34,510 nucleotides of DNA from Desulfobacterales bacterium (GTDB taxonomy: Bacteria > Desulfobacterota > Desulfobacteria > Desulfobacterales > JAFDHS01), in NCBI GenBank assembly GCA_030589165.1, contig JAUUWG010000005.1:1-34510 (forward strand). Reading direction: 5' to 3'. The number at the start of each line of letters is the position of its first letter. Position 1 is the first letter of the stretch. This document shows, piece by piece, positions 1 to 3,539 of the stretch. The position numbers and the translations under genes were made by a program. Under the pieces are notes generated by a model. That model was not told where the DNA came from. It saw only the letters and a program-made list of their open reading frames with translations, and did no database searches.

Positions 1-447
1 GTTTTTGAAAGAAAAAAGCGCCCTTCCCTGTTGGGCAGTGATGCTTTTATCCGTCGGATCCGGGATAAATTTTATCTCCAAAAGGACCATCAAGAGATTC
101 CGTCATCATCGGTTCTGGCGCCGGATATAAAAAGGATAAAGGATGTCGTTTGCAGACATTATAGGGTAAATGAATCTGTATTGGATAAATCCCAACGCGG
201 CGTATCCAATGAGCCGAGAAACGTGGCGATTTATTTGGCCAGGCAATTAAGGGGCGATGCGTTGGAGACGATCGGCAGAGAATTTGGATTGAAGCGATTC
301 AGCTCAACCAGCAGTGCCGTTCAAAGAGTCAAAAAACAAATCGTTAAGAACCGGAATTTCAGGGAAAGGATCGAAAAGATCAGACTGGAAATAACTAAAG
401 GGCATGGGCTTGGGACTTGCCTTGACTTCAATAATTTGAAGGTGTAG
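1..447 (+). CDS. RAYT/IS200-like transposase with DnaA-type C-terminal domain (5' partial)
   Basis: The frame is open to the left edge of the window, so this is the C-terminal part of a longer protein; the TTG at 31 offered by the ORF track is not a credible start. Residues corresponding to EPRNVAIYLARQLRG, then ETIGREFGLK and SSAVQRVKKQI, have the pattern of the DnaA domain IV helix-turn-helix. In many Deltaproteobacteria this pattern follows a Y1 (HUH) transposase domain in REP-associated tyrosine transposases. The catalytic Y1 part with its HUH and Tyr motifs lies outside the window, so I infer it rather than see it. Directly downstream is a tail ending in a perfect hairpin (GTGTGCC/GGCACAC), the kind of structure such enzymes recognise. 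An internally deleted relic of the same gene lies at about 4550-4644. The alternative is a stand-alone DnaA-like DNA-binding protein. Confidence 0.7.
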   Translation, partial: VFERKKRPSLLGSDAFIRRIRDKFYLQKDHQEIPSSSVLAPDIKRIKDVVCRHYRVNESVLDKSQRGVSNEPRNVAIYLARQLRGDALETIGREFGLKRFSSTSSAVQRVKKQIVKNRNFRERIEKIRLEITKGHGLGTCLDFNNLKV

Positions 448-486
448 GCTCACCCTTAAGACGTGTGCCGTGCCCGGCACACAACA
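403..486 (+). repeat. Transposase-tail repeat, copy 1
   Basis: About 80 bp starting inside the last codons of the transposase (GGGCTTGGGACTTGCC) and ending GGCACACAACAA. It is nearly identical to 3048-3130. It includes the perfect hairpin GTGTGCCGTGCCCGGCACAC (7-bp stem, 6-nt loop). Copy 1 is attached to the transposase gene and copy 2 is not, which fits a 3' end of a RAYT/IS200-type unit that also exists without the gene. Confidence 0.75.
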
Positions 487-547
487 AATCAATTAAGCGG
501 AAAATAGGCCTGCGGCCTATTTTCCGCTTATCTCCGTCGTTATGTGC
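477..547 (+). other. attC-like recombination site 1
   Basis: A 71-bp imperfect palindrome. The outer boxes GCACACAAC and GTTATGTGC pair with one mismatch. Next come about eight unpaired bases on each side, then a perfect 17-bp inner stem (TAAGCGGAAAATAGGCC and its complement) with a TGC loop. Outer box with AAC/GTT, unpaired spacer, then long inner arm is the architecture of integron attC sites. The right box deviates from the GTTRRRY consensus at one position. A hicBA toxin-antitoxin pair, a typical integron cassette content, starts 22 bp after the site. No integrase is in the window. The left box overlaps the transposase-tail repeat. Confidence 0.5.
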
Positions 548-568
548 TCACAAAATGAGGTAGAATAT

Positions 569-772
569 ATGAAACTTAAAGTAGTAATCCACGAAGCAGA
601 AGAAGGTGGCTATTGGGCAGAAGTTCCCGCTATACCAGGCTGTGCGACCCAAGGAGAAACCTTCGATGAGTTGCTTACCAATATCTATGAAGCTGTCGAG
701 GGTTGTTTATCCGTAGATATTCAAGACATCGAGATATCAGATAAGGACAAAGTAATGGAGATAGCAGTTTGA
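569..772 (+). CDS. hicB: HicB-family antitoxin
   Basis: 67-residue protein of the HicB type: [20 protein letters not shown], then [13 protein letters not shown] and an acidic tail, which is the partial RNase-H-like fold of HicB antitoxins. HicB binds and neutralises HicA and often autoregulates the operon. The ATG at 569 is preferred over the in-frame ATG at 542 because GAGGT lies 7 bp upstream of it and the shorter form matches family length. Its stop overlaps the start of hicA (TTGA), so the two genes should be translationally coupled. The order is hicB then hicA. This short form lacks an obvious additional DNA-binding domain. The pair sits directly after an attC-like site, which suggests a mobile cassette. 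Confidence 0.85.
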
Positions 773-975
773 AGGCAATTAGCGGAAAGCGATTTTGCAG
801 GCTGTTGAAATCGAAAGGGTGGGACTTAAAGCGTATCAGTGGAAGCCACCACATTTACACCAAAGCTGGAAGCACTGCCCGGATATCTGTTCCTGTTCAT
901 GGCAACACTCCATTGAAAATAGGGTTGCAAACGCATCTTATGAAGATAGCAGAAATTGATGAATCGGAATTATAA
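769..975 (+). CDS. hicA: HicA-family mRNA interferase toxin
   Basis: 68-residue HicA toxin, an RNase with a double-stranded-RNA-binding-like fold that cleaves mRNA. The signature RISGSHHIY, with the catalytic histidine near residue 27-28, and the C-terminal [12 protein letters not shown] are typical, and the length matches the family. It begins with TTG inside the stop of hicB (4-bp overlap); no ATG is available in frame near the expected N-terminus (MKAISGKRF). A weak start in a coupled overlap would keep toxin below antitoxin. A group II intron tail on the opposite strand begins about 10 bp after the stop codon. Confidence 0.88.
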
Positions 976-984
976 ACCGCACAT

Positions 985-1100
985 ATAGGGATAGGGACGC
1001 CCATCACTGAGCGCCCCTCCCACAACACCGGACATACGGGTCGCGTATCCGGCGGTTCGGCTGATCAAAGCAGGCACAGATAAAACAACATCCGCCCTGC
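985..1100 (-). mobile_element. Group II intron 3'-end remnant (domains V-VI)
   Basis: On the minus strand the segment reads CGCCGGATACG, then CCGTATGTCCGGTG. It folds into a 7-bp lower stem, a two-base TG bulge and a short upper stem, the architecture of group II intron domain V, with a CGC catalytic triad as in class C introns. A second hairpin follows (GGGGCGC paired with GCGTCCC) where domain VI is expected. The GTGTTGTGGGAGGGGCGC context is familiar from bacterial group II introns. No reverse transcriptase or 5' part remains. The right boundary is unclear and is replaced by the 138-bp repeat at 1111. Confidence 0.65.
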
Positions 1101-1110
1101 CGGGCCTATA

Positions 1111-1248
1111 AAATAGGGTCAAGTCTACTTTTGACTGTTGATCGGTTTTACGTGTGCAGTAGTAGTTCTTTATACCATCAATTATGTTTTTGTGGATATT
1201 TTTCAGTATGATTTTATCCAAAGGTCAAAAGTAGACTTGACCCCTAAA
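1111..1248. repeat. 138-bp MITE-like element, copy A
   Basis: The ends carry perfect 20-bp terminal inverted repeats, GGGTCAAGTCTACTTTTGAC on the left and its complement on the right. The second copy at 2814-2951 has the same length and orientation and differs at about two positions. The interior has no coding capacity. The two copies bracket the radical SAM gene. Just after the right end the 12-mer GACCCCTAAAGA is tandemly duplicated. Confidence 0.85.
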
Positions 1249-1370
1249 GAGACCCCTAAAGACTAAAGAAAAATGCAATGCTTTTAAGAAGCAAGATATT
1301 TGAAAACCGAAATTTGTATTAATCTGACAGTAAATTATTACTGCGTGACAAAAATAACAAAGGAAAAAAA

Positions 1371-2789
1371 ATGAATAAATACAGGGTTGCTCTTGTTGAA
1401 GCTGTTTCGGATCTGACACATGTATACAGTCGAACCTGTTTACCACGCGTAGGGCTTGCTACTATAGCTTCAGTTCTTAATAAGAACGGTTATAAGTGCG
1501 ACTTATGGATAAAACCAATGACCGACTCGGAAAAAAAGAATCTGGCAAATTACGATCTTGTGGGTATTGGTTCATTATCAAACACTATTAATGAGGCTTA
1601 TAATCTGTCAGATTATTTAAGAAAAAAGGGAACAAAAGTTGTAATGGGCGGGCCTCATGTATCATTTATGCCTGAAGAAGCATTAAATCATTGTGATTAC
1701 GTTATTAAAGGTGAAGGTGATGAAACTTTTCTCTCATTGGTTAAAATACTTGAAAAGGGAGCAATTCCTAATGGACTTAAAAGTATTTCATATAAAAATA
1801 AAGACAACACTTTTCAGCACAATGAAATTCATGATGTTGTAAATTTTTCTGAAGTTCCTTCACCGGATTTTACCCTTTCTCCTCAGATTAACAATAATGA
1901 TATCCCACCAATAGTTGTTACATCCAGAGGTTGTCCCCACGACTGCTCATTTTGCAGTGTTACCCCACTTTTTGGAAGGAAATACAGGTTTAAATCCCAT
2001 GAACAGGTTATTGAGGAACTGCGCCCTATTCAACACAAAAGCGTCTGTTTTGGTGACGACAATTTTTGTGCTAACCCCAAACGTGCAAAATCGTTGATGC
2101 GGGAAATGATAAAAAGAGATGCTGTTCCGTTAAGATGGTCAGGTCAAATGTGTGTGAGTGCTGCATCAGACAATGAATTGCTTGAACTGATGGAAGAGAC
2201 AAGGTGCAGAATAGTGTATGTGGGAATTGAGTCAGTTGATCCTGAAACTCTAAATAGGTACGGTAAGGCACATACAGTGGATGTTGTAAAACAATGTGTT
2301 GAAAATCTTCATAAGCATAACATTGGCATACATGGCATGTTCGTAGTTGACAGCAAGGATAATCCGGATGCAGCAAAAAATATTGTCGATTATGCAATAG
2401 AAACGGACATAGATACAATTCAGGTTTTTTCCCTTACGCCATTTCCCGGAACAAGGGCGTATGAAGAAAACAGGGACATATTACTTCACAATCAATGGAC
2501 ACAATATGATGGCATGCATGTTGTTGTAAAACCAGAAAAATGCTCGGCATATACAATGCAAATGGCAATAGTAAACCAGATGAAAAGATTTTACAGTTTA
2601 AAGCGGATACTTACATCATACAGAAAAAAAAGGGGGTGGAGGGTTAAGTACCGTTTGGGAGGTAACCTGCTACTGAGAAAATGGATAAAGGAAAACTCAG
2701 AATATATTGAAAGCCTGAAAGAACACAGTGTGACAAATGGAAGTGTCAACATGTTTATGAAAAAAACTAAACGGGCATTAAACGGCTAA
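1371..2789 (+). CDS. Cobalamin-binding-domain radical SAM protein
   Basis: 472 residues. Residues 1-130 have the Rossmann-like B12-binding layout (PRVGLATIASVL, VVMGGPHVSF, VIKGEGDETF). The radical SAM core follows with the cluster motif CPHDCSFC (Cys188, Cys192, Cys195) and a later GIESVDPETL segment typical of the TIM barrel. The family is the B12-dependent radical SAM methylase/cyclase group; the substrate is not recognisable. I saw no DxHxxG base-off histidine motif, as is common in this group. The start at 1371 is supported by AAAGGA a few bases upstream. The gene is visibly more AT-rich than the core genes in the window and is flanked by two copies of the 138-bp element, so horizontal acquisition is likely. 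It stands alone with no pathway partner. Confidence 0.85.
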   Translation: MNKYRVALVEAVSDLTHVYSRTCLPRVGLATIASVLNKNGYKCDLWIKPMTDSEKKNLANYDLVGIGSLSNTINEAYNLSDYLRKKGTKVVMGGPHVSFMPEEALNHCDYVIKGEGDETFLSLVKILEKGAIPNGLKSISYKNKDNTFQHNEIHDVVNFSEVPSPDFTLSPQINNNDIPPIVVTSRGCPHDCSFCSVTPLFGRKYRFKSHEQVIEELRPIQHKSVCFGDDNFCANPKRAKSLMREMIKRDAVPLRWSGQMCVSAASDNELLELMEETRCRIVYVGIESVDPETLNRYGKAHTVDVVKQCVENLHKHNIGIHGMFVVDSKDNPDAAKNIVDYAIETDIDTIQVFSLTPFPGTRAYEENRDILLHNQWTQYDGMHVVVKPEKCSAYTMQMAIVNQMKRFYSLKRILTSYRKKRGWRVKYRLGGNLLLRKWIKENSEYIESLKEHSVTNGSVNMFMKKTKRALNG

Positions 2790-2813
2790 AATATCAGTCC
2801 GTTGTAAAAAAAG

Positions 2814-2951
2814 AAATAGGGTCAAGTCTACTTTTGACTGTTGATCGGTTTTACGTGTGCAGTTGTAGTTCTTTATACCATCAATTATGTTGTTGTGGAT
2901 ATTTTTCAGTATGATTTTATCCAAAGGTCAAAAGTAGACTTGACCCCTAAA
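2814..2951. repeat. 138-bp MITE-like element, copy B
   Basis: Second copy of the element at 1111-1248, in the same orientation and of the same length, with the same 20-bp terminal inverted repeats and about two substitutions. It begins 25 bp after the radical SAM stop codon. Between this copy and the tail repeat at 3048 lies about 95 bp of non-coding DNA with a small CTCCGC/GCGGAG hairpin. Confidence 0.85.
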
Positions 2952-3047
2952 TTGACCCCCTCCGCCTCAGCGGAGCCACTGCCTTCCGAAGCACCGTCAC
3001 CGGATACCCCGTTGTGATAACACTATGCCCTTCGCCTCCATCCGGCT

Positions 3048-3130
3048 GGGCTTGGGACTTGCCTTGACTTCCATAATTGGAAAATGTAGGCTCACCCTTA
3101 AGACGTGTGCCGTGCCCGGCACACAACAAC
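3048..3130 (+). repeat. Transposase-tail repeat, copy 2
   Basis: Near-identical to 403-486, including the GTGTGCC/GGCACAC hairpin and the terminal CACACAACAA, but without a transposase gene in front. It leads straight into the second attC-like palindrome, as copy 1 leads into the first. Confidence 0.75.
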
Positions 3131-3187
3131 CGGCTCAAGAGGGACGCGGCATAAAGCGCCGCGTCCCTCAGCCAAGAACTGTTGGGC
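3118..3187 (+). other. attC-like recombination site 2
   Basis: About 67-70 bp. The left box ACACAAC and right box GTTGGGC enclose long arms GGCTCAAGAGGGACGCGGC and GCCGCGTCCCTCAGCC that pair with a 3-nt bulge in the left arm. The right box matches the integron core consensus GTTRRRY exactly, and extrahelical bases in one arm are a hallmark of attC. A toxin-antitoxin relic starts 23 bp downstream. As with site 1, no integrase is present in the window, so this would be a cassette cluster lacking an integrase or the edge of a larger array. Confidence 0.5.
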
Positions 3188-3209
3188 CTAAAAGAAAGGA
3201 TTGAAGTTA

Positions 3210-3427
3210 TGAAGTTAGAACAAATAGCCAAAGAAGTAATGAACCTAAGCCTCGAAGAAAGGGCAGAACTTGCCCAGCGACTTCTGGTCAGCTTGGACGA
3301 GCCCCCCCCCATTTGAGATCGAAAAATTATGGATGCAAGAGGCTGAACGTCGACTTCAAGAGTACCGGGAAGGTAAGGTCCAGGGTATACCAGCTGAAGA
3401 TGTATTTCGCCGGGCTATTAGTGAGAT
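3210..3427 (+). pseudogene. Addiction-module antitoxin (TIGR02574-like), frameshifted
   Basis: The start MKLEQIAKEVMNLSLEERAE, preceded by AAAGGA, matches the small antitoxins of the 'putative addiction module component' family that pair with ParE/RelE toxins. The frame stops early after DEPPPI at a run of nine C (3302-3310). Removing one C restores FEIEKLWMQEAERRLQEYREG through AISEIS and a stop at about 3433, the expected length for the family. This is a one-base insertion in a homopolymer: a real inactivating or phase-variable mutation, or a sequencing error. The following toxin is also broken, which favours a genuine relic. Confidence 0.7.
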
Positions 3428-3429
3428 AT

Positions 3430-3539
3430 CGTGATAACTGAATCATTTCTCCCGGAGGCCGACGAGGAGTTTCGGGAAGCCGCGCGTTATTACGAGAGTC
3501 AACTACCCCTCCTGAATAGATTCAGGAGGGGTAGTTGAC
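3430..3539 (+). pseudogene. ParE/RelE-family toxin, truncated N-terminal fragment
   Basis: Beginning with GTG overlapping the antitoxin stop, the frame reads VITESFLPEADEEFREAARY and then YESQ, the characteristic N-terminus of ParE-type toxins. After about 25 codons the homology is cut by a long perfect palindrome and the frame ends at 3539. The rest of the toxin is missing. It was probably destroyed by insertion of the palindromic element or by a deletion ending there. Confidence 0.65.

Follow-up and report, generated by a model that had tools for sequence, protein, structure and literature searches.

Remains of a group IIC-attC intron that probably splits the attC site of a hicBA cassette in a Desulfobacterales bacterium

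Group IIC-attC introns are inserted in the bottom strand of integron attC sites at R'', in the orientation opposite to that of the cassette genes, and their published insertion site (the IBS1/IBS3 consensus) is TTGT/T (PMC7923331, PMC8876359). Bacteria are said to have few introns that lack a reverse transcriptase (RT) (PMC4424553), and in Thermosynechococcus elongatus the spread of ORF-less introns has been attributed to RTs acting in trans, which was tested there (PMC2882425). The window analysed here, a stretch of 34,510 nucleotides from a Desulfobacterales bacterium (contig JAUUWG010000005.1), carries behind its hicA gene a new member of the already known group IIC-attC introns, present as fragments that lack an RT (Table 1).

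Table 1. Features of the left end of the window and integrase remnants of the same genome
Feature	Position	Strand	Evidence
Second intron copy, 5'-end fragment	405-482	-	95% identical to family head
attC belonging to the cassette that precedes hicBA; R' GTTATGT at 539-545	483-545	+	Covariance model R1
hicBA cassette, from start TTATGTGC to half R'' site	540-984	+	Pfam; complementary cassette ends
hicB	ORF 542-772, likely start 569	+	Pfam HicB_lk_antitox, 4.1e-7
hicA	769-975	+	Pfam HicA_toxin, 1.4e-14
First half of hicBA R'' (GCACAT), intron 3' exon	979-984	+	Continues with AAC at 3125 without the intron
Intron 3' end (...CCCTAT) with domain VI hairpin	985-1022	-	RF00029; compensatory stem changes; relatives' tails CCCTAT/CCCGAT or a close variant
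Intron domain V, CGC triad	1023-1057	-	RF00029; fold against shuffles; compensatory changes
Domain IV remnant of ORF-less type	1058-1111	-	Shared with L008 and L009 of this genome; related sequence in further ORF-less copies
First copy of the 137-bp repeat, truncates intron tail	1112-1250	+	Repeat comparison
B12-binding radical SAM gene, between both repeats, inside the intron remnant	1371-2789	+	Gene annotation by domain
137-bp repeat, copy 2, truncates intron head	2815-2951	+	99% identical to copy 1
Start of domain I (GTGTGCCGGGCACGGC...), 5' end of presumed same intron	~2952-3124	-	First 94 bases 99% identical to L009 head
Remaining hicBA attC (AACAACCGGCTCAAG...CTGTTGGGC), intron 5' exon; R' GTTGGGC at 3181-3187	3125-3187	+	Joined-site fold, attC score 24
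Next cassette: addiction-module antitoxin, broken frame	3209-3440	+	PF09720, E 7.5e-4, below its cut-off
Degraded integron integrase genes	L150:2406-2894; L151:6704-7105		Same genome as window

The intron tail behind hicA

The tail fragment begins 9 nt past the hicA stop codon (973-975) and is matched on the minus strand by RF00029, the Rfam model for group II intron domains V and VI, over the whole model length (window 985-1057, model positions 1-77). The match scores 31.9 bits (E = 1e-4 in a search of 301 bases), was found in E-value mode and falls below the curated gathering cut-off of 40 bits; an Rfam scan of the window at the curated thresholds found nothing, no match in the window reaching 40 bits. 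RF00029 gives two sister copies from this genome 33.9 and 34.7 bits, and the low score is thus a trait of the family. The catalytic triad in the RF00029 alignment is CGC. As minus-strand RNA the tail folds better than 200 of 200 shuffles (z = -3.98), and across 30 related 3' ends the stems of domains V and VI are kept, 10 of the 22 predicted pairs having changed on both sides with pairing retained. The GUGYG...AY ends of group II introns are found in the window and its relatives as GTGTG heads and CCCTAT tails. On sequence grounds the tail can be identified as the 3' end of a group II intron, made up of the end of domain IV, domain V and domain VI.

An earlier note on this DNA had described a domain V with a CGC triad and a domain VI-like hairpin antisense behind hicA and had proposed a search with Rfam domain V models; the RF00029 match, although below its cut-off, and the compensatory pairs bear this description out. 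It had placed the fragment at 985-1100, of which the start stands but the end does not, as the fragment reaches about 1111, where a 137-bp repeat starts.

The hicBA attC and the cassette array

The earlier note had considered the rest of the intron and its RT to be gone; the RT is indeed absent, but what is most simply its 5' end is kept at ~2952-3124 and a second head lies at 405-482. Both heads, at 483 and 3125, are preceded by an attC ending in GTT, and the hairpin 5' of the insertion site that is a trait of class C is present at the window heads and in relatives. The head at 2952-3124 and the tail at 985-1111 do not overlap, share one strand, follow each other in the expected order and are 99% and 95% identical to the same sister copy. 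In the sister copy L009 both ends are present, the attC is canonical and the 3' exon, ATGTGC, is the same as that of the window tail. From order, strand and context we infer that, most simply, the tail behind hicA and the head ending at 3124 are one intron in the attC of hicBA itself.

The R'' of an integron cassette is expected to pair with the start of the same cassette. Joining the two flanks (984 to 3125) places ACCGCACAT directly before AACAACCGGCTCAAGAGGGACGCGGCATAAAGCGCCGCGTCCCTCAGCCAAGAACTGTTGGGC in a sequence that folds as an attC, and the joined site reads GCACAT followed by AACAACCGG...GTTGGGC. Every base of the reconstructed R'', GCACATAAC, can pair with the hicBA cassette start GTTATGTGC (G followed by TTATGTGC), a nine-base match for which the six R'' bases on the hicA side have a chance of 1 in 4096 of matching. 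An intron-free hicBA attC junction would be expected to read GCACATAACAACCGG. In another genome (L191) the intron-free hicA tail reads GCACAT followed by AACATCAAGG, that is GCACAT and then AAC; this tail alone is informative, hicBA homologues elsewhere being mostly not cassettes and a complete empty site being found in none of them. The simplest reading is that the attC of hicBA is split, not absent.

R1, a covariance model made from six short attC flanks of relatives, ranked 483-545 first in the window (27.0 bits, E = 7.4e-5, filters off, the site being outside the training set). R1 misses attCs with longer stems, so that an absence says little, and it did not recover the longer-stemmed attC at 3125-3187; MAFFT alignments of attCs of mixed length were too gapped for modelling. 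The neighbouring genes in the window belong to toxin-antitoxin systems, namely hicBA and the addiction-module antitoxin with a broken frame, both on the plus strand, and the intron lies on the minus strand, antisense to the cassette genes as had been claimed. The array begins at the contig edge. This genome, which is 64.6% complete, yielded no intact integron integrase, and two degraded IntI pieces on other contigs score 109.7 and 73.4 bits against a cut-off of 265; with only these, the array is CALIN-like or broken on present data. We regard it as settled that an old array of integron cassettes occupies the left end of the window, and the former array proposed in the earlier note is supported by the R1 match at 483-545, the complementary hicBA ends and the attC-enriched exons of relatives described below. 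Intron fragments can mark attC sites that otherwise appear to be lost.

Two other observations concern this genome. A truncated ORF with a Bac_DnaA_C domain at window 1-404 ends inside an intron fragment and may be the C-terminal portion of a Y1 (REP-type) transposase. A second type of group II intron with the C-terminal part of an RT (L006:3333-3824) lies in antisense orientation behind an antitoxin gene and the small ORF that follows it, and is probably another IIC-attC insertion.

Relatives of the intron and their insertion sites

Of 390 genomes from the same order, 102 carry the intron family; named carriers include Desulfosarcina alkanivorans, Desulfosarcina cetonica and Desulfogranum japonicum, and a few carriers lie outside the order (Lentisphaerae, Kiritimatiellae). 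Phage records gave no match, an exact-pattern scan of viral contigs was likewise negative, and matches in plasmid records were weak and partial only. Full-length copies start GTGTGCCGGGCACGGCAC and mostly end in CCCTAT or CCCGAT. One of them (L125) has an intact RT of 446 residues with a maturase domain, the closest solved chain being the GsI-IIC RT (E 2.5e-138), and so the family is assigned to class C (group IIC), in agreement with the earlier note, on the RT of this relative, the window copy having none. Tandem introns occur at L119:1190-3121, where a complete-length RT-bearing copy ends in CCCGAT and the next begins GTGTG with zero exon between them, and at L142:1186 a family member lies directly past the 3' end of an apparent different class C intron, with the domain VI hairpin as target. 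In the 4.2-Mb genome G050, a different group II intron RT is present on contig 1 in over 40 near-identical copies.

With a rough attC score of our own and simple letter shuffles as control, 38% of the 5' exons of relatives scored at least 20 compared with 3.6% of shuffles, and 53% scored at least 18 compared with 11% (47 heads with enough flank). These exons usually end in GTT and show the attC bottom-strand order RYYYAAC...L'...L''...GTT. R1 also picks out other attC-like sites, not at the intron ends, in L132, L039, L055, L156 and L173, which places at least those introns in arrays. A minority of insertions lie behind terminator-like hairpins, L136 and L140 for example being terminator-like or unclear. 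Under GUGYG...AY ends the site reads TTGTT/RRRY (TTGTT/ATGT), and a one-base shift gives TTGT/TATGT with the same empty site. Insertion in attC, as previously suggested, is supported by both the R1 match in the window and the enrichment over shuffles. The many attC insertions make the family useful for testing how IIC-attC introns recognise the folded attC.

Three other readings of the locus have to be weighed. A pair of hairpins lying behind hicA by chance, with no intron, would suit an RF00029 score under the gathering threshold, but is scarcely conceivable in the face of sister copies 95% identical in the same genome, relatives in more than 100 genomes, covariation and complete relatives with an RT; the relatives and the covariation rule it out. 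For an ordinary class C intron past the transcription terminator of hicA, with no relation to integrons, it can be said that class C introns generally target terminators (PMC4424553) and that some relatives (L136) do lie behind terminator-like hairpins. We nevertheless consider it very unlikely, since both window heads show R'/R'' and L'/L'' elements and in view of the R1 match, the complementary hicBA cassette ends, the attC structure enriched in 47 relatives, the adjoining toxin-antitoxin cassettes and the degraded IntI genes of the same genome.

The head (2952-3124) and tail (985-1111) might also derive from two introns joined by a rearrangement, in which case hicBA would truly have lost its own attC. 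Foreign DNA now separates them over 1.8 kb, and a middle of about 400 nt is missing from both; against this, their order, strand and closeness to one sister copy (99%, 95%) fit a single intron and their outer flanks jointly fold as an attC, so that we hold a two-intron origin to be unlikely. The reading we prefer, and consider very probable, takes the tail as the 3' end of a group IIC-attC intron that entered the hicBA attC, on its bottom strand, by reverse splicing; the identity of the intron, both junctions, its orientation and the attC context can be read from the nucleotides themselves.

ORF-less copies, a proposed history and known systems

Among 24 two-ended copies, a sample biased towards ORF-less copies as the query was itself ORF-less, 17 are shorter than 850 nt, too short to accommodate an RT. 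Most of these share a domain IV resembling the start region of the RT gene of complete copies, with the ribosome-binding-like AGGAGG and the start codon lost. Three ORF-less copies in G050, 98 to 99.6% identical, occupy three sites, and L166 has one ORF-less and one RT-bearing copy, at sites 560 bp apart. Also in G050, an ORF-less copy (L041:3459-4170) and a copy with a broken RT (L043:3877-6714) have identical 5' cores and 5' exons with different domains IV, indicating either a recent segment exchange or a duplication. A single ORF-less lineage was considered and dropped, since in the tree of 5' cores the ORF-less copies are not one clade and the L041 and L043 cores are identical; a domain IV common to copies with differing cores suggests that segments were exchanged or that loss occurred more than once. 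Mobilisation in trans by RTs, tested for the T. elongatus introns (PMC2882425), is the likely route of the ORF-less copies. We suggest more tentatively, judging it slightly less probable than its opposite, that an RT-less IIC-attC intron of ~700 nt with a domain IV from the RT gene start spreads from attC to attC in Desulfobacterales by means of the RTs of complete introns in the same genome. If true this would be an integron-specific parasite of a parasite, and the family is suited to testing whether RTs drive RT-less copies in trans.

In the history that we propose for the window, the intron, probably ORF-less before its decay, would have entered between GTT and RRRY of the hicBA R'', antisense to the cassette genes, with an RT presumably supplied in trans; we infer reverse splicing because it fits every junction here. 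A second copy would have entered the neighbouring attC, only its head at 405-482 surviving. Later the middle of the intron, some 400 of about 700 nt, may have been replaced by the radical SAM gene and the two 137-bp direct repeats that flank it. This repeat-flanked gene looks like a composite mobile unit, and the repeats, with inverted ends GGGTCAAGTCTACTTTTGAC, were found in only two copies in the genome. Head and tail would thus have come to lie 1.8 kb apart, and splicing or movement would no longer be expected.

S.ma.I2 of a Serratia integron and UHB.F1 of a soda-lake array resemble the window introns in class C, R'' site and opposite orientation, and S.ma.I2, as is probable for the window intron, separates a cassette gene from the attC belonging to it (PMC7923331, PMC8876359). 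In contrast to these two, the window has two broken RT-less copies, most two-ended relatives are ORF-less, and the site reads TTGTT/RRRY by GUGYG...AY boundaries whereas theirs is TTGT/T. Terminator-targeting group IIC introns share the same small class C ribozyme and insertion behind a hairpin (PMC4424553), although the hairpin in the window carries R and L boxes and is an attC. The TeI3 series of T. elongatus has likewise had its RT gene deleted and keeps ORF-start remnants in domain IV (PMC2882425), but it belongs to another intron group, lies in one genome and does not target attC.
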